A stretch of DNA of 64,000 nucleotides, taken from NCBI GenBank assembly GCA_012521345.1, contig JAAYMN010000060.1, positions 1 to 64,000 of the forward strand, in the 5' to 3' direction. The number at the start of each line of letters is the position of its first letter. Within the stretch, counting starts at the first letter, position 1. Source of the stretch: Bacillota bacterium (GTDB lineage: Bacteria; Bacillota; Dethiobacteria; Dethiobacterales; Dethiobacteraceae). This document shows positions 14,748-25,178 of this stretch, piece by piece. A program made the translations under genes and the position numbers. The notes beneath the pieces are model-generated. The model searched no databases and was not told the DNA's origin. It worked only from the letters and a program-made list of their open reading frames with translations.

Positions 14748-15269
14748 TTACTTGTAAATAATTATTCCTGCCAATGCGGCAAAAACAAGTATCATGACGG
14801 GATGCAGCCGCGTTTTCAGCAAAAGCAGGAAGGCACCTGCGGCAATTGCTGCTGCAGCAAGGTCTTTGATGGCGGTTTGGCCAATCAAAATGGCGGCATT
14901 GGCGATCAAGGCCATTACTGCCGGGCGCAGGCCGCCGAAAGCTGCCTGAACCCATTCATGCCGGTAAATTTGTTTCAGGATGGTCGCCGCCAGCAGCACA
15001 AGCACAAGAGAAGGCATCACCACGCCGGCGGTGGCGGCTGCCGAACCGAAGAAGCCGGCAGTACGGTAGCCGATAAAGGTGGCGCTGTTGATGGCAATGG
15101 GGCCGGGCGTCATTTCCGCAATGGCGACGATATCGACGAATTCCGCCATAGTCAGCCAGCCGTGTGTGGTAATAATTTCCTTTTCAATGAGCGGCAGCAT
15201 GACATAACCGCCGCCGATGCTGAAAATACCGATTTTAAAAAAAGCTAAAAACAGTTGCAAGAGAATCAT
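14748..15269 (-). CDS. Chromate transporter (CHR) family, short subunit
   Basis: One of two single-domain CHR proteins (173 residues, about five to six helices). It shows the family signature FKIGIFSIGGGYVMLPLIEKE near the N-terminus, cited here only to its core, and the AEMTPGPIAINSATFIGY loop. Short-chain pairs of this kind act together in the membrane; in Bacillus the homologues are YwrA and YwrB. Chromate efflux is shown for some pairs, but the natural substrate may be another oxyanion. The start ATG 15269 has AAAGGAGAT upstream and overlaps the stop of the partner gene by four bases. Confidence 0.88.
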   Translation of the reverse strand: MILLQLFLAFFKIGIFSIGGGYVMLPLIEKEIITTHGWLTMAEFVDIVAIAEMTPGPIAINSATFIGYRTAGFFGSAAATAGVVMPSLVLVLLAATILKQIYRHEWVQAAFGGLRPAVMALIANAAILIGQTAIKDLAAAAIAAGAFLLLLKTRLHPVMILVFAALAGIIIYK

Positions 15270-15832
15270 GGCGTATCTCCTTTGTTTGTTTTCCCGCCTT
15301 GCCGGCTGTGCAGCAAAAGACCGGCGGCGGCACCGGCGGCGATCAGCAGCATGGCATGCAGCTTGAAGACGACGGCCAGGATAAAAAAGATGCCCCACAG
15401 GATGATACTCTGCTTTTGCTTAAAAACTGTTCTGCCCAGCTTCAGGACGGCAGCGGCAATGAGGGCGGCCACAGCCAGGCGGATGCCGCCAAAGGCAGCG
15501 GCCACAATTTTGTTTTCCGCAAAGTGCGCGAAAAACATGGCAATAGCCAGAATGACGAGAAAAGAAGGCAGGACGGCGCCCAGCATGGCGATGATGGCGC
15601 CGCTTGCACCGCCGACTTTATGGCCGATAAAAATGGCGGTATTCACGGCCACGGCTCCGGGCAGCGACTGGGCGACCGCCAGGACATCAAGGAATTCTTC
15701 ATCGCCCAGCCAGCCTTGTCCGGCAACCACTTCTCTCTTGATGAGCGGCAGCATGGCATAGCCGCCGCCGAAAGTTGTGGCTCCAATTTTAAAAAAGGTT
15801 GTAAATAATTGTAAATATTTGTTGTTTTTCAT
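15266..15832 (-). CDS. Chromate transporter (CHR) family, partner short subunit
   Basis: The upstream member of the CHR pair, 188 residues. It carries TTFGGGYAMLPLIKRE and the equivalent AQSLPGAVAVNTAIFIG loop, so both halves keep the conserved proline-glycine motif. The two subunits share the same topology core and presumably form a heterodimer. The start has AGAGGAGC upstream. The cwlD gene lies divergently 59 bases away, so the promoters of both genes must overlap in that interval. Confidence 0.88.
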   Translation of the reverse strand: MKNNKYLQLFTTFFKIGATTFGGGYAMLPLIKREVVAGQGWLGDEEFLDVLAVAQSLPGAVAVNTAIFIGHKVGGASGAIIAMLGAVLPSFLVILAIAMFFAHFAENKIVAAAFGGIRLAVAALIAAAVLKLGRTVFKQKQSIILWGIFFILAVVFKLHAMLLIAAGAAAGLLLHSRQGGKTNKGDTP

Positions 15833-16687: not shown

Positions 16688-16716
16688 TTGTCAAGCCGGC
16701 CTGTGTATGCTATACT
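16688..16716 (+). promoter_or_regulatory. Promoter of the ribozyme-nagB transcript
   Basis: TTGTCA at 16688-16693 and TATACT at 16711-16716 with an exact 17-bp spacer. Transcription would begin near 16723, giving a leader of about 120 nt before the ribozyme cleavage site and about 300 nt before nagB. Confidence 0.72.
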
Positions 16717-16840
16717 ACTAAAGTCATTGCAGGGAGGTGAAAAAGCGGGAAGAAAAGCCGGCAATACTGCCAGAATCCCAAAGGAGGTGAAAAAACGGCA
16801 GGAACAGATAAAGCAGTGCAGCATGGGATAATAATTTACA

Positions 16841-16974
16841 AGCGCCGGAACACGTTGCAGACGTGTTGACGAGGTGGAGGTTAATCGAAATATTCGGCGG
16901 GTGCCTCCCGGTTGGCCACGACCGTTAACGAACTTACAAAACCGGGGAGCGATCCCCGGGACAAAAGGTTCAGG
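16841..16974 (+). ncRNA. glmS-type self-cleaving ribozyme / glucosamine-6-phosphate riboswitch
   Basis: The stretch matches the glmS ribozyme core segment by segment. It opens with A then GCGCC, so cleavage is predicted between 16841 and 16842. P1 is AACACGT (16849-16855) with ACGTGTT (16861-16867). Then come GACGAGG, ATCGA, and TTCGGCGGGTGCC followed by TCCCGGTT, which form P2 and the P2.1/P2.2 core. After ACCGTTAA and ACAAAACC, P4 is CCGGGGA (16942-16948) with TCCCCGG (16953-16959), capped by a GCGA tetraloop. In this class GlcN6P acts as the catalytic cofactor and cleavage destabilises the mRNA. The gene downstream is nagB, not glmS. A further hairpin (TTTTGCC/GGCAAAA, 16978-16996) separates it from the ribosome site. 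Confidence 0.93.
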
Positions 16975-17023
16975 TGGTTTTGCCAGTCAGGCAAAAGATT
17001 AAAGGGGAAAACGGAGGAAAACA

Positions 17024-17749
17024 ATGGAGATATATGTGGTGGACAGTTATGAAGCATTAAGCACCAGAGCAGCCCTTATTGTGGCAGGCCAGATCTGTGC
17101 AAAGGCCGATACTGTTCTGGGCCTGGCTACTGGCAGTACACCCTTGGGCATGTACAGAGAATTGACGGAAATGCATAAAAAACAAAAACTGGACTTTAGC
17201 CGCGTCATTTCCTTCAACCTGGATGAGTACCTGGGACTGGCTCCGGACAATGTGCAGAGCTACCATTATTTCATGTGGGAAAATCTTTTTCAGCATATAA
17301 ACATCCGCCCGGAGAATACACACATTCCCGACGGCCTGGCTGCCGATACGGACGCCGCCTGCCTACAGTATGAACAAGCCCTGCAGCGTGCGGGCGGGGT
17401 TGACCTGCAGATTCTGGGGATTGGCAGAAACGGCCATATCGGTTTTAACGAACCGTCATCCCGCTTTACCGGTCCCACCCACGTGGTACGGTTAAGTGAA
17501 GATACGATCAAAGCCAATGCCAGGTTTTTTGCTTCTGTGGAGGAAGTCCCCACACATGCCATTACCATGGGGATTAAAACAATTATGCAGGCGAAAAAAA
17601 TTCTGCTTTTGGCCAATGGCAAGGAAAAAGCACAGGCTATCAAAGCAGCCGCCTGCGGTGATATTGACCCGGCCGTACCCGCTTCCATTCTCCAGTTGCA
17701 TCCTGACTGTATCTTTCTGCTTGACAGGGAAGCGGCACAATACCTGTGA
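17024..17749 (+). CDS. nagB: Glucosamine-6-phosphate deaminase / isomerase
   Basis: Interconverts glucosamine-6-phosphate and fructose-6-phosphate plus ammonia in the cytosol. The 241-residue protein has the short Bacillus-type length. Motifs: phosphate loop LATGSTPLGMY (about 35-45), catalytic FNLDEYLGL (about 65-73), GIGRNGHIGFNEP (about 129-141) and TMGIKTI. The start ATG follows CGGAGGAAAAC. Its 5' leader contains a glmS ribozyme, so high GlcN6P should cut the mRNA. A catabolic deaminase would normally be induced, not silenced, by GlcN6P, so the control logic fits a biosynthetic (aminating) role better. No nagA or sugar transporter lies beside it. Identity is firm; direction is inference. 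Confidence 0.95.
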   Translation: MEIYVVDSYEALSTRAALIVAGQICAKADTVLGLATGSTPLGMYRELTEMHKKQKLDFSRVISFNLDEYLGLAPDNVQSYHYFMWENLFQHINIRPENTHIPDGLAADTDAACLQYEQALQRAGGVDLQILGIGRNGHIGFNEPSSRFTGPTHVVRLSEDTIKANARFFASVEEVPTHAITMGIKTIMQAKKILLLANGKEKAQAIKAAACGDIDPAVPASILQLHPDCIFLLDREAAQYL

Positions 17750-17769
17750 ATCTGACAAAGAAGCGGTGC

Positions 17770-17803
17770 CCGCAACCGGAGCGGTTGCGGCCCGCATTTT
17801 TTA
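17770..17803 (+). terminator. Intrinsic terminator of nagB
   Basis: CCGCAACC (17770-17777) pairs with GGTTGCGG (17783-17790), followed by CCCGCA and a T6 tract. Confidence 0.82.
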
Positions 17804-20483: not shown

Positions 20484-21305
20484 TTGGCAAGCATTATGGA
20501 AACAATTATTGCGGCGTTAAACTGGCGCAACGCTTTGGATATCGTCATAGTCACCTTCGTTTTTTACAAGGCAATCATGCTGATCAGAGGAACACGGGCG
20601 GAACAGCTGGTAAAAGGCCTGGCGATCCTGCTGATTGCCACTGTTGTCAGCCGCCAGCTTCAGTTGTTTGCACTGCACTGGATTCTGGACAAATTTATGA
20701 CCCTGGGGATTGTTGCCATTCCCATTGTCTTCCAGCCGGAGCTGAGACGTGCACTGGAGACGCTGGGCCGTGGCGGGATTTTTTCCCGCAGCAGCCGGCC
20801 TTTTGAAGACTTTGATTTTGACAAGATGCTGGATGAGTTGATAAAGGCCGTCCAGGTGCTGGTCAAAAAGCGCATCGGTGCCTTGATTGTGCTTGAACGC
20901 GAAACAGGCCTTAACGAAATTATAGAGACCGGCATCAGCATTGACGGACAGGTGTCGGCCGAACTGCTGGTCAATATTTTTTTCCCCCGCAGCCCGTTGC
21001 ATGATGGAGCTGCCATTATCCGCGGCAACCGGGTGATGGCGGCAGGGTGCTTTTTGCCGCTGACGGAGAACCCCAATCTCAGCAAGGAACTGGGAACACG
21101 CCATCGTGCGGCCCTGGGGATTTCCGAACAGTCTGATGCCGTCTGCATTGTTGTTTCCGAGGAAACAGGCGCCATTTCCCTGGCAAATAACGGCAAGCTG
21201 ACACGTTTTCTGGATGAAAAAACTCTGCGGCAGCTGGTTACCAAGTTATGCAAGCCCCAGTCAAACCTGCTTAATATCCGGCAGTGGAGGTTGAACGCAA
21301 AATGA
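20484..21305 (+). CDS. cdaA: Diadenylate cyclase CdaA
   Basis: Membrane-bound enzyme that makes c-di-AMP from two ATP. It has 273 residues, the usual CdaA length. Three N-terminal helices (about 10-28, 35-55, 60-80) precede the DAC domain. The catalytic motifs are LHDGAAII (DGA) and the RHRAALG (RHR) segment about 30 residues later. I chose TTG 20484 because CGGAGGTGG sits 7 bases upstream; ATG 20496 would be too far from it. cdaR overlaps the end. The cdaA-cdaR-glmM order is conserved in Firmicutes and links c-di-AMP with peptidoglycan precursor supply. Confidence 0.95.
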   Translation: MASIMETIIAALNWRNALDIVIVTFVFYKAIMLIRGTRAEQLVKGLAILLIATVVSRQLQLFALHWILDKFMTLGIVAIPIVFQPELRRALETLGRGGIFSRSSRPFEDFDFDKMLDELIKAVQVLVKKRIGALIVLERETGLNEIIETGISIDGQVSAELLVNIFFPRSPLHDGAAIIRGNRVMAAGCFLPLTENPNLSKELGTRHRAALGISEQSDAVCIVVSEETGAISLANNGKLTRFLDEKTLRQLVTKLCKPQSNLLNIRQWRLNAK

Positions 21306-22237
21306 TGAAACGGCTGCTGCGCAACAATACTTTTGTCAGGCTGACAGCTTTTTTCCTCGCATTTATCTTCTGGGCATACGTGACGGGGGATTACCGTGAA
21401 ACGGAAACACAGAATATCACCCGCCGCTATCCCAATGTGCCCCTGGAGTGGGTCAACCTGCAGAGTGAACTGGAGCTGACAAAGATCCCGGAGGAGATTG
21501 AGGTCATCCTGGAAGGGCGCTCTTCTGTCCTGGACGATATTACGCCGCAGACATTGAGCGTTTTTGTTGATCTGCGCAACCTCGGGGCAGGCCAGCACCG
21601 GCTTACTCCCGTGGTAGACCTGCCCGGCGGGGTGCGGGTAGTTTCTTTCAACCCGGAGCAGGTGGTGGTTGTCCTGGAGGAAATTCAGTCTCCGCAAATG
21701 CTCGTGGAGGTTGACCTTTTAGGCTCGCCGGCACCCGATTACCAAATTGGTACAATTAACATCAACCCGCAAAAAGTATTTGTGCGCGGCACCCGTTCCC
21801 GGCTGGAAAAAGTGGCCCGCGTCCGTGCCATTATCAATGTGGACGGCGCGGACAGCAGCCTGGCACAGTATGTGGAGGTACAGGCTGTTGATTTTACCGG
21901 GCAGGTGGTGGAAGGAGTCAGTGTCCATCCCGCCCAGGTAGAAGTAACAGTTCCGGTGGCCCTGCCGCAAAAGACAGTCCCCGTCCGCCTGCAGGTGAGC
22001 GGTGAACTGCAGGAAGGATTTACCGTGCAGCAGGTTATTTTAAATCCCGCGGAAGTTACCCTGGAAGGACCGCAAGGCGTGCTCGACAAAATTAGCGAGA
22101 TACTGACTGAACCGGTGGATATTGCGAACGCGGAAAGCTCTCTCAACGCTGCGGTCGCCCTGCAGGTGCCTCAAGGCTGCGAGGTTTTGCATGTCGGGCC
22201 GGTTCATGTGGAAATAAAAATAGTTGCAGCGGAGTAG
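21302..22237 (+). CDS. cdaR: CdaR, YbbR-domain regulator of CdaA
   Basis: Membrane-anchored modulator of CdaA, 311 residues. A single N-terminal helix (about 12-28, AFFLAFIFWAYVTGD) is followed by three extracytoplasmic YbbR repeats of about 80-90 residues each, recognisable by recurrent V-x-V strands and the P-x-x-V-x-V-x-G pattern (PQKVFVRG, PAEVTLEG). Many copies have four repeats, so this is on the shorter side. The ATG overlaps the cdaA stop (ATGA), with TGGAGG 11 bases upstream. glmM follows after 53 bases. Confidence 0.92.
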   Translation: MMKRLLRNNTFVRLTAFFLAFIFWAYVTGDYRETETQNITRRYPNVPLEWVNLQSELELTKIPEEIEVILEGRSSVLDDITPQTLSVFVDLRNLGAGQHRLTPVVDLPGGVRVVSFNPEQVVVVLEEIQSPQMLVEVDLLGSPAPDYQIGTININPQKVFVRGTRSRLEKVARVRAIINVDGADSSLAQYVEVQAVDFTGQVVEGVSVHPAQVEVTVPVALPQKTVPVRLQVSGELQEGFTVQQVILNPAEVTLEGPQGVLDKISEILTEPVDIANAESSLNAAVALQVPQGCEVLHVGPVHVEIKIVAAE

Positions 22238-22290
22238 TATGCCGGTATGTGCTGTTGTCAGAGCCAAACTGAAATGTGGGAGGAAAAGGC

Positions 22291-23637
22291 ATGGGAAAGT
22301 TATTCGGAACAGATGGCATCAGGGGCGTAGCCAACAGGGAATTGACGCCGGAGCTGGCTTTTAAGATAGGCCGCATCGGCGCTTTTGTCTTACAGAAGGA
22401 AAACAAGGGCAAAAAAGCTTTCCTGGTAGCGCGCGACACCAGGAAATCAGGCACCATGCTGGAGTCTGCCCTGGTGGCCGGCCTGGCTTCCGCCGGCGCC
22501 GACGTTTATCTGGCAGGGGTGATATCAACGCCGGCCACTGCATTCCTGACAAAGCAGTTGGCCGGGTGCGGCGGAGTGGTCATTTCCGCTTCCCATAACC
22601 CTTATTACGACAATGGCATTAAATTTTTCAGCTCCGACGGTTTCAAGCTGCCCGATGCAGTAGAAGACGAAATGGAGGAGCTGTTTTTCCAAAATGATGA
22701 CAATCTGCCCCGGCCGGACGGAGCGGACATCGGCTCTGTCCTGCCCGACCCGGAGGCTGCGGACCGGTATCTTGCCCACCTGCTTTCCACGGTGCCCTGC
22801 CGCCTGGACGGCTATCGCATTATCCTGGACTGTGCCAACGGGGCTGTTTACAGGCTGGCTCCGCAGGCTTTCCGCGCCCTGGGGGCGGAAGTAATTGTCT
22901 TCAACGACCGCCCGGACGGTATTAACATTAATGACGGCTGCGGTTCCACCCACCCTGAAGCCATTGTGAGCTATGTGAAGCGGGAGGGTGCCGATTTCGG
23001 CTTTACATTTGACGGAGACGCGGATCGCGTCCTGGCCGTGGACGCGGACGGGGAACTGGTGGACGGCGACGCCATCATGATGATCCTGGCCAGGCACCTT
23101 ATGGCGCGCGACGCCTTGCCGCACCGGACAGTTGTCGCCACCGTCATGAGCAACCTGGGTTTGGAAAAAGCGGCGGAAAAATACGGCTTCCGCCTGTTGC
23201 GGACCAAGGTGGGGGACCGCTACGTGCTGGAAGAGATGCTGGCAGGCGGTTATACCTTGGGCGGCGAACAGTCGGGCCATATCATTCTCCTGGATTATAA
23301 TACAACCGGCGACGGTCTGCTGACTGCCCTGCAGCTGGCTGCCATTGCCGTTGCCGGCGGCAAAAGCCTGAAAGAACTGGCGGCCGACTATACCCGCTAC
23401 CCGCAAGTGCTGGTAAACTGCAGGGTGAAAAAGCGTGAAGGCTGGGACAGCAACCCCCGCATCCGGGCTGCCATTGCAGAGACGGAAGATGTCCTGCACG
23501 GCAGCGGCCGCCTGCTAATCCGCCCGTCCGGCACCGAGCCGCTTATCCGGGTGATGCTGGAAGGGCGAGATGAAGAAAAACTGCGTGCCATGGCAGAGAA
23601 GCTGGCGGATATTATCACGGCCGAACTGAACCGGTGA
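22291..23637 (+). CDS. glmM: Phosphoglucosamine mutase
   Basis: Converts glucosamine-6-phosphate to glucosamine-1-phosphate for UDP-GlcNAc and peptidoglycan synthesis. It has 448 residues with all four mutase domains: N-terminal LFGTDGIRG, the phosphoserine loop ISASHNPYYDNGIKFF (about 99-114), the magnesium loop DGDADR (about 240-245), the sugar-binding GEQSGH, and the C-terminal phosphate loop RPSGTEPLIRVM. The ATG follows GGGAGGAAAA. In many Firmicutes the next gene is glmS; here the following 310 bases hold only an interrupted frame and a terminator. Confidence 0.96.
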   Translation: MGKLFGTDGIRGVANRELTPELAFKIGRIGAFVLQKENKGKKAFLVARDTRKSGTMLESALVAGLASAGADVYLAGVISTPATAFLTKQLAGCGGVVISASHNPYYDNGIKFFSSDGFKLPDAVEDEMEELFFQNDDNLPRPDGADIGSVLPDPEAADRYLAHLLSTVPCRLDGYRIILDCANGAVYRLAPQAFRALGAEVIVFNDRPDGININDGCGSTHPEAIVSYVKREGADFGFTFDGDADRVLAVDADGELVDGDAIMMILARHLMARDALPHRTVVATVMSNLGLEKAAEKYGFRLLRTKVGDRYVLEEMLAGGYTLGGEQSGHIILLDYNTTGDGLLTALQLAAIAVAGGKSLKELAADYTRYPQVLVNCRVKKREGWDSNPRIRAAIAETEDVLHGSGRLLIRPSGTEPLIRVMLEGRDEEKLRAMAEKLADIITAELNR

Positions 23638-23896
23638 GGCGAAAGCAGGAACAGGAACTTTTAGTTTGCCCGGCATTTCTCTGCCGCTTGTCCCTGATGT
23701 CAGAGAGCATCACGGGAGGCTTTTCATTACGGGCTAAACCCTGCCGGTTGACGGCGGCAGTTTCCCCGCTGACATTGAACGGCTGTCCCCGCAACAAGTC
23801 AGGCAACAATTCTGTGATTATCCTGCCAGGGAGATCCGGGAACCGGCAGCGGAAATCAGGACCAAAGCCCGTTTGGCGGAGCAGCTTGACAACTGA
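23638..23896 (+). pseudogene. Possible remnant of a coding frame interrupted by a stop
   Basis: In the frame beginning at 23639 the translation reads like protein except for one TAA at 23735-23737. It ends at TGA 23894-23896 after a helical, charged tail that includes ERLSPQQVRQQF and RTKARLAEQLDN. I recognise no family, and the fragment does not resemble the GlmS C-terminus. It may be a decayed gene or a short real gene that begins after the TAA from a non-ATG start. Confidence is low. Confidence 0.25.
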
Positions 23897-23923
23897 AATG
23901 ATACCCAGGATGAATGATGCAAC

Positions 23924-23953
23924 AAAACAGGGACGCTTGTGCGTCCCTGTTTT
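23924..23953. terminator. Bidirectional terminator after glmM region
   Basis: AAAACAGGGACGC (23924-23936) and GCGTCCCTGTTTT (23941-23953) form a perfect 13-bp stem with a TTGT loop and A and T tails on either side. Confidence 0.9.
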
Positions 23954-25178
23954 ATTCAGTCTGCCTGCCGCATGTCGCCCCGGCAGTAAGACTGTCGTTT
24001 GACACTGCAGGCAGCTGCTGCAGTTCTTTTCGCATGATAAGCCACATGTTGGCCGGATCGTTGATCAGTTCCGTCTGCAGTCCCTCCAGGCCTGACAGGA
24101 GTTCTGTAAAATCAAGGGCGGCCGTGCTCCTGATTCTGTGCTGCAAGTCATGGTTCCAATTGCTGTCCCGTGCCTGCATGAGGGCATCTATTTTCTGCTT
24201 CAGCTCCACTGAGCCGAAACCGCCGCCGATATAAGCAATGCCCTCCGGTGCCAAGACACGGTAGATTTCCTGGAAGGCCCTTTTTTTATTGCGCCAGTGA
24301 TAAAGCGCCCCCCTGCTGATGACAAGGTCAACGGAATTGTCTTTTAAAGGCAGGTCACACACATTACCCCACAGTGTATTAACCCGCCCCCCCAGGCCGG
24401 CTTCAGCTATGTTCCGGGCGGCAATGGCCAGCATGTCCCGCGAATAATCCAAAAGGTATACTGTCAGATCCGTTATCTGTGCCAAAGCGATTCCCAGGTA
24501 GCCTGTCCCCGCTCCTACGTCCAGGCAGATGCCGGACGTAATTTTTGTTTTGTCTTTTATTTGCGCGGCAATCACGGGATAGACGGGGGCAAATACCTCT
24601 CTTGCCGTCCGGTCGTAGCTTTCTGCGCTGGGATAGTGGCTGGAAGCGGTTACGGCTGCCAGCAGCTTATTGAAAATGATCCCGAACATTATATTCCTGT
24701 TGGCGGGGGTTATTTCGAAAAGCAGAATATCGTCCCTGGCGCGGATACGGTCCAGAAACGCTGTTTTTTTGTTTTTCAGCACTCCCAGAACCGGCAGCGG
24801 GGAATCAAGCACGGCCCAGACTTTTTCCTGAAAGCGGTGTGCGTCGTTTTCAAAAAAGCCAAGCTCGTCCATTATCACCAGTTCCGGCTGGTCCCTGAGG
24901 CATTCCTCCAGGATTTTGACACCGTAGGCATCAAAAGTGGCCGGCAGTGAAACCCAGTAATCGTCGCCAATGCAGCGGCCGATAAACCTGTCTTCGCTGA
25001 TTTCAGCCGGCTGGCGGATGTCCTCCAGATAAAATCCGGTCAGTTTTTTCTCCTGGTAGTAGCGGGAAGTTCTGAACCCGGCAACCTGTGACAAAGGCAG
25101 GCTGTTTACCAGTTGCTTTAGCAGCGTGGTTTTACCTACATGCAGGTCGCCTGTCAGAAAGAAATTTTTTACCACCAT
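23952..25178 (-). CDS. Fusion of a P-loop NTPase and a SAM-dependent methyltransferase
   Basis: A 408-residue two-domain protein. Residues 1-170 look like a THEP1/NTPase_1-type P-loop domain: Walker A GDLHVGKTTLL (9-19), GFRTSRYY, and Walker B VIMDELGFFE (about 100-109). Residues about 185-375 are a class I methyltransferase with motif I CLDVGAGTGYLG, the LLDYSRDM acidic strand and a VDLVISRGALYHW segment. NTPase domains of this family occur as separate proteins, often near metal cofactor or radical SAM genes; the fusion is unusual and its substrate is unknown. The ribosome site GGGGTG is modest. The ZIP gene lies upstream on the same strand, 112 bases away. Confidence 0.8.
   Translation of the reverse strand: MVVKNFFLTGDLHVGKTTLLKQLVNSLPLSQVAGFRTSRYYQEKKLTGFYLEDIRQPAEISEDRFIGRCIGDDYWVSLPATFDAYGVKILEECLRDQPELVIMDELGFFENDAHRFQEKVWAVLDSPLPVLGVLKNKKTAFLDRIRARDDILLFEITPANRNIMFGIIFNKLLAAVTASSHYPSAESYDRTAREVFAPVYPVIAAQIKDKTKITSGICLDVGAGTGYLGIALAQITDLTVYLLDYSRDMLAIAARNIAEAGLGGRVNTLWGNVCDLPLKDNSVDLVISRGALYHWRNKKRAFQEIYRVLAPEGIAYIGGGFGSVELKQKIDALMQARDSNWNHDLQHRIRSTAALDFTELLSGLEGLQTELINDPANMWLIMRKELQQLPAVSNDSLTAGATCGRQTE

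Follow-up and report, generated by a model that had tools for sequence, protein, structure and literature searches.

A glmS-type ribozyme in front of nagB in the Dethiobacteraceae, and the possible use of NagB to make glucosamine 6-phosphate

Which enzyme supplies glucosamine 6-phosphate (GlcN6P) when glmS is missing from its usual place behind glmM? The question is raised by a stretch of 64,000 nucleotides from a bacterium of the Dethiobacteraceae (phylum Bacillota; GenBank assembly GCA_012521345.1, contig JAAYMN010000060.1, positions 1 to 64,000, forward strand), referred to below as the window. It carries a cdaA-cdaR-glmM cluster that ends without glmS and, about 3.5 kb upstream of cdaA, a GlcN6P-sensing, self-cleaving glmS ribozyme placed directly before nagB. 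From a comparison with the other genomes of the family, we propose that the ribozyme passed from the control of glmS to that of nagB and that NagB was recruited as an ammonia-dependent enzyme forming GlcN6P, a reading to which we assign a probability of about 0.6.

The ribozyme-nagB unit and the cdaA-cdaR-glmM cluster

The ribozyme (16830..16981; the features of the window lie on the plus strand unless stated otherwise) matches RF00234 over the full length of the model (positions 1-167 of 167), with 109.7 bits against a gathering score of 37. The nagB gene starts 42 bases further on (17024..17749) and encodes a glucosamine-6-phosphate deaminase/isomerase of 241 amino acids, which matches TIGR00502 over its full length with 310.6 bits (cut-off 236.9). 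Its best solved relative is the NagB structure 2bkv (252.7 bits), which, like 2bkx, we take to be the enzyme of Bacillus subtilis. The gene has its own ribosome-binding site, GGAGG (17013..17017, read from the sequence), and is followed by a terminator-like hairpin with a T run (17763..17795; -24.3 kcal/mol, z -3.89, with none of 200 shuffled sequences equally stable); a promoter-like site, TTGTCA-17-TATACT, lies upstream of the ribozyme (16688..16716; a consensus-scan match with no evidence of function). Ribozyme and nagB thus look like one short transcription unit, and the ribozyme-nagB unit that a first-pass annotation of the window had placed upstream of the cluster is borne out.

By score and by core the RNA is a glmS ribozyme, and the gene next to it is nagB rather than glmS; since this concerns its context, the identity of the RNA is unaffected. 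The core is common to the 18 other ribozymes found in the family, and when all 19 are aligned, 10 of the 33 predicted pairs are kept through two-sided changes. At the sequence level, the cores of the nagB-linked copies are intact and match those of the glmS-linked ones, so the nagB-linked RNA should be active and cleave itself in the presence of GlcN6P.

The cluster downstream consists of cdaA (20496..21305; diadenylate cyclase; TIGR00159, 277.8 bits, with the domains PF02457 (DAC) and PF19293 (CdaA_N)), cdaR (21302..22237; CdaA regulator with three YbbR repeats, PF07949, 111.2 bits), joined to cdaA by an ATGA overlap, and glmM (22291..23637; phosphoglucosamine mutase; TIGR01455, 581.8 bits). 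The profiles confirm the three genes named in the first-pass annotation, and no glmS comes next. As that annotation had also described, the roughly 310 bases 3' of glmM hold a frame broken by stops and, at the usual place of glmS, a terminator hairpin (23924..23953; -22.9 kcal/mol, z -6.99), followed by a gene on the minus strand (23952-25178); they also hold an uninterrupted frame of 122 amino acids (23634-24002) without a Pfam match. Where an operon of the B. subtilis type has glmS directly 3' of glmM, the window has a terminator and an opposite-strand gene instead. A relic of glmS or of its ribozyme was sought in the 310-base stretch and rejected: among the comparison loci it has no relative, either as DNA or in its three plus-strand frames.

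Ribozyme, GlmS and NagB across the family

The family is one of uncultured bacteria; its sample comprises 19 genomes (the order holds the same 19), and 18 of them carry the ribozyme, in 19 copies altogether. The gene behind it is glmS for 10 copies, nagB directly for five (the window's genome, G000, and G001, G012, G013 and G018) and glmM for three (G010, G011 and the first of two copies in G004); the copy in G002 is followed by a contig end. The order cdaA-cdaR-glmM-ribozyme-nagB in G012, G013 and G018 puts nagB at the normal place of glmS, and G001 keeps the ribozyme-nagB unit with a NagB 93% identical to that of the window. G011 has cdaA-cdaR-ribozyme-glmM-acyltransferase-nagB, and G010 is identical from the ribozyme onward, after which its contig ends. 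Both can be derived from the order in G004, ribozyme-glmM-ribozyme-glmS-acyltransferase-299aa-nagB (where 299aa stands for a protein of 299 amino acids), if the second ribozyme, glmS and the 299-residue gene were lost.

GlmS over the cut-off was found in 14 of the 19 genomes, the five without it being G001, G010, G011, G012 and G013. These five are 90-97% complete (G001 93%), and if the absences are independent, the chance that incompleteness alone accounts for all of them is about 8e-7. In G010 to G013 the native place of glmS is bridged by continuous sequence without the gene. No SIS domain was found in any of the five (10 genomes examined), which leaves no stand-in of the GlmD or NagB-II type there; as controls, the domain was detected in 11/11 genomes reached via other loci and in 14/14 built-in controls. 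By comparison, nagB is present in 5/5 genomes without glmS and in 3/14 with GlmS (p=0.005, kinship not accounted for), and in each of the five it stands behind the ribozyme or within the ribozyme's operon. None of the 19 genomes has NagA over the cut-off (nine show weak, partial matches), so that NagB occurs without its usual catabolic partner.

In the GlmM tree, G004 groups with G010 and G011 (97 in the Shimodaira-Hasegawa-like approximate likelihood-ratio test, SH-aLRT), and G000 groups with G015, G018, G012 and G013 (SH-aLRT 95). The NagB tree sets G000, G001, G012, G013 and G018 (SH-aLRT 98) apart from G010, G011, G004 and the other members of the class. The two trees were built quickly and leave several forks open; combined, their two GlmM clades and two NagB lineages suggest two captures of a nagB by the ribozyme.

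The window's own genome (2.06 Mb in 130 contigs, 97% complete) differs from what its missing glmS had implied. The whole-genome search found an intact glmS on another contig (G000:C78:146-1951, minus strand), encoding 603 amino acids without stops and matching TIGR01135 with 781.9 bits (cut-off 418); the protein has a class-II amidotransferase domain (GATase) and two SIS domains. The gene starts 29 bases past purA on a contig spanning 5.4 kb. It has no ribozyme of its own, the sole RF00234 copy found in the genome search being that before nagB, so the counter-evidence named in the first-pass annotation, a complete glmS accompanied by a ribozyme, is found by half. The family's usual GlmS proteins cluster together in a tree of 33 class GlmS sequences, and those of G000, G002 and G018 form a separate set on a long branch, with 45-51% identity to the other 30. 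This foreign-type glmS follows purA directly in 3/3 genomes, with gaps of 29, 46 and 70 bases (L073:2436-6926, L072:367-3517 and L008:143-3216); in G018 a glutamine synthetase gene stands behind it (TIGR00653, 401.6 bits, slightly below the cut-off of 429). It is absent from G001, G012 and G013. Contamination was ruled out as the origin of the C78 gene, the same type being 92.5% and 77.4% identical in two other family genomes and again placed directly after purA. The suggestion that the GlcN6P-forming step had moved to nagB therefore does not hold in its strong form for G000, whose NagB cannot be called the sole source of GlcN6P because the foreign-type GlmS is also present; in the sister genomes the suggestion is supported.

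The pairing of ribozyme and nagB was found within this family. Outside it, none appeared when 40 class genomes, with 41 nagB loci between them, were searched (best score 10.7 bits). Nor did the 80 named nagB loci that scored highest among at least 593 candidates contain one, though near kin of the window may be missing from this selection. These 80 were searched with a regular expression, which missed 1/19 true ribozymes (that of G016), and with a covariance model, R1, derived from the family's 19 ribozymes, for which the best other match reached 12.5 bits.

In relatives nagB also occurs in a cassette with an acyltransferase, in some of them together with GlmM. The best solved relatives of this acyltransferase, 5z09 and 2ggo, are sugar-1-phosphate nucleotidylyltransferases, and the cassette looks anabolic. 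In G010 the acyltransferase gene (L065:3046-3866) is split into two overlapping frames, through decay or sequencing error; in G011 it is intact. The protein of 299 amino acids between acyltransferase and nagB (L074:8501-9397) is conserved, with 23 further full-length or nearly full-length copies in class loci; its GSDLD motif is invariant, and it matches nucleotidyltransferases weakly, below the cut-off. In the same locus of G004 (L074), a single operon contains a pair of glmS ribozymes separated by 1.5 kb (G004:C1:235940-236093 before glmM and 237597-237750 before glmS). Elsewhere in the window, two adjoining half-size frames (14748-15832) resemble, by eye, the halves of a chromate-transporter-type protein.

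A proposed ammonia-dependent route and its alternatives

The reading we prefer starts from an ancestral order cdaA-cdaR-glmM-ribozyme-glmS. In two lineages glmS would have been lost from the operon and a nagB placed under the same ribozyme. NagB would act as the aminating enzyme (fructose 6-phosphate + NH3 -> GlcN6P + H2O), with GlmM drawing GlcN6P towards UDP-N-acetylglucosamine (UDP-GlcNAc). The nagB leader would cleave itself in response to GlcN6P, and nagB expression would fall, closing a feedback loop as for glmS. The lineage of the window would then combine an ammonia-using NagB route with a glutamine-using route through a ribozyme-free GlmS. Amination is suggested by the direction of the control, by where nagB sits within the operon, by genomes that have lost both GlmS and SIS proteins, and by a family without NagA over the cut-off. 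A shut-off activated by the product, as in the repression of glmS described in the available parts of PMC2258182 and PMC6171935, suits a biosynthetic rather than a degradative enzyme. A fuller account is more tentative, and we would put it a little short of even odds: the ribozyme would have been re-used twice for a NagB that replaces GlmS, peptidoglycan precursors would be made on free ammonia by a catabolic enzyme run in reverse under RNA feedback, and members that also have the ribozyme-free GlmS beside nitrogen genes would possess separate routes for high and low ammonia.

Several observations weigh against this recruitment of NagB. The window's genome carries an intact GlmS, and G002 has the ribozyme, yet no nagB in its assembly. 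The sequence of NagB is silent on the direction of the reaction, so that for the window's enzyme it is the context that argues against deamination in the cell. All family genomes are drafts (100-220 contigs), as are nearly all those of the class. In the class survey (97 genomes, 57 past the quality bar, kinship not accounted for), nagB is present in 12/14 quality genomes without glmS (in G039 as a fragment at a contig end) versus 18/43 with it (p=0.005); outside the family the counts are 7/9 versus 15/31 and the difference is not significant (p=0.15), so that it is mostly this family that carries the link across the class. Two good-quality class drafts, G035 and G093, have no glmS, nagB or SIS domain and no visible source of GlcN6P, which means that absence of glmS does not require NagB. 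Among genomes outside the family, the acyltransferase-nagB cassette occurs in 22/27 with glmS versus 4/13 without it, and adjacency of glmM and nagB in 4/13 without glmS versus 4/27 with it (counts made by eye, several of the loci ending at contig ends); neither arrangement is supported as a marker of glmS loss. The main warning comes from Akkermansia muciniphila, which has no GlmS and requires N-acetylglucosamine (GlcNAc): its NagB, with Km values of 5.5 mM for fructose 6-phosphate and 41 mM for ammonium, makes no GlcN6P at physiological conditions, according to the available part of PMC5902328.

The same survey holds one further in-place swap, in G065 from another family (L220:6007-9398), with cdaA-cdaR-glmM-nagB and neither ribozyme nor glmS. 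SIS domains are absent from 12 of the 14 glmS-less class genomes examined outside the family, the exceptions being a weak fragment in G034 and a two-SIS protein of 386 amino acids in G060 (G060:C42:11343-12101), a possible other stand-in. A goat-rumen locus with acyltransferase-glmM-nagB (L155) was considered as a glmS loss outside the family and dropped, its genome having a frame of 405 amino acids with two SIS domains.

For the window's genome, the C78 GlmS may itself make the GlcN6P, with the ribozyme-nagB unit a leftover or a minor valve, and NagB a synthase in relatives only, or never. The completeness of that GlmS favours this explanation, as does the occurrence of the same type (GlmS2) in G002 and G018, with a tree that fits vertical inheritance within the group. 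A useless ribozyme should decay, however, and in the window both the ribozyme core and the nagB frame are intact; the unit is kept, moreover, in G001, where no GlmS was found. We regard this explanation as unlikely, though it deserves to be kept in view. It is improbable that the glmS-less relatives import amino sugars, with NagB degradative and the ribozyme before it an accident of deletion. Akkermansia offers a precedent (PMC5902328, in the part available) and G035 and G093 are without an apparent GlcN6P source, but NagA over the cut-off is missing from the whole family, ribozyme and nagB appear to have come together in two lineages with different NagBs, and the neighbours of nagB are glmM, cdaR and cdaA, with no uptake genes.

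A reversed sign of control, in which cleavage on GlcN6P would stabilise or release the nagB message so that the substrate induces a degradative NagB, would explain a ribozyme ahead of a degradative gene. In 10 of the 19 family cases, however, the gene behind this ribozyme is glmS, and the cores are alike; the space before the start codon of nagB is just the 42 bases given above, and repression is the sole outcome described in the available parts of PMC6171935 and PMC2258182; such a reversal seems very improbable. We give scarcely any credence to the idea that every member has GlmS and that the absences are assembly gaps. The drafts are fragmented, the foreign-type glmS of G000 sits on its 5.4-kb contig, and both congeners of G001 have what is missing there. 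A gap is possible for G001 alone (93% complete), whereas in G010 to G013 the sequence runs continuously across the native place, no SIS fragment was found, and five gaps out of five would be the coincidence of about 8e-7 noted above.

Comparison with known systems

The available parts of PMC6171935, PMC2258182, PMC11602151 and PMC7125110 describe the glmS ribozyme as controlling glmS. A literature search of titles and the starts of abstracts found no description of this ribozyme before nagB; the main ribozyme survey was not covered by the search, and an earlier mention is possible. Reportedly, McCown et al. in 2011 found all but two glmS ribozymes in glmS mRNAs, and the two may precede nagB. 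Ribozyme and NagB are both known families; within the scope of that search, what is new is that they occur together, in a family where sister genomes have no GlmS. If the proposed route is real, an essential cell-wall enzyme has been replaced, and drugs against GlmS or its ribozyme would face a different target. The transfer of the ribozyme to nagB would also be natural evidence on the direction of NagB, since a shut-off that senses the product only makes sense for an enzyme that synthesises it.

The glmS-less relatives are like A. muciniphila in having no GlmS and NagB as the sole candidate; they differ from it in that A. muciniphila needs GlcNAc and in that no ribozyme link is reported for it (PMC5902328, in the part available). 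With the cdaA-cdaR-glmM-glmS operon of B. subtilis, as the available part of PMC6171935 presents it, the locus has in common the order cdaA-cdaR-glmM, the RF00234 ribozyme and GlmM as the next enzyme of the pathway. In the window, however, nagB stands behind the ribozyme and the unit precedes cdaA, and the glmS that the genome has on another contig, next to purA, is without a ribozyme. The NagB of B. subtilis is an inducible deaminase that feeds GlcN6P into central metabolism (same part of PMC6171935). The window's NagB resembles it (2bkv/2bkx) in family and approximate length and aligns over nearly its full length; unlike it, the window's nagB has a product-sensing ribozyme, in a family without NagA over the cut-off.

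In the archaeal GlmD route to UDP-GlcNAc (GlmD model NF041128), a deaminase run backwards with ammonia replaces GlmS. Our proposed route differs from it in that NagB is not a SIS protein, the five glmS-less genomes being without SIS domains, and in its control by the glmS ribozyme. The two are alike in that the acyltransferase of the relatives resembles the C-terminal part of 5z09 and 2ggo, and a deaminase run on ammonia would be common to both.

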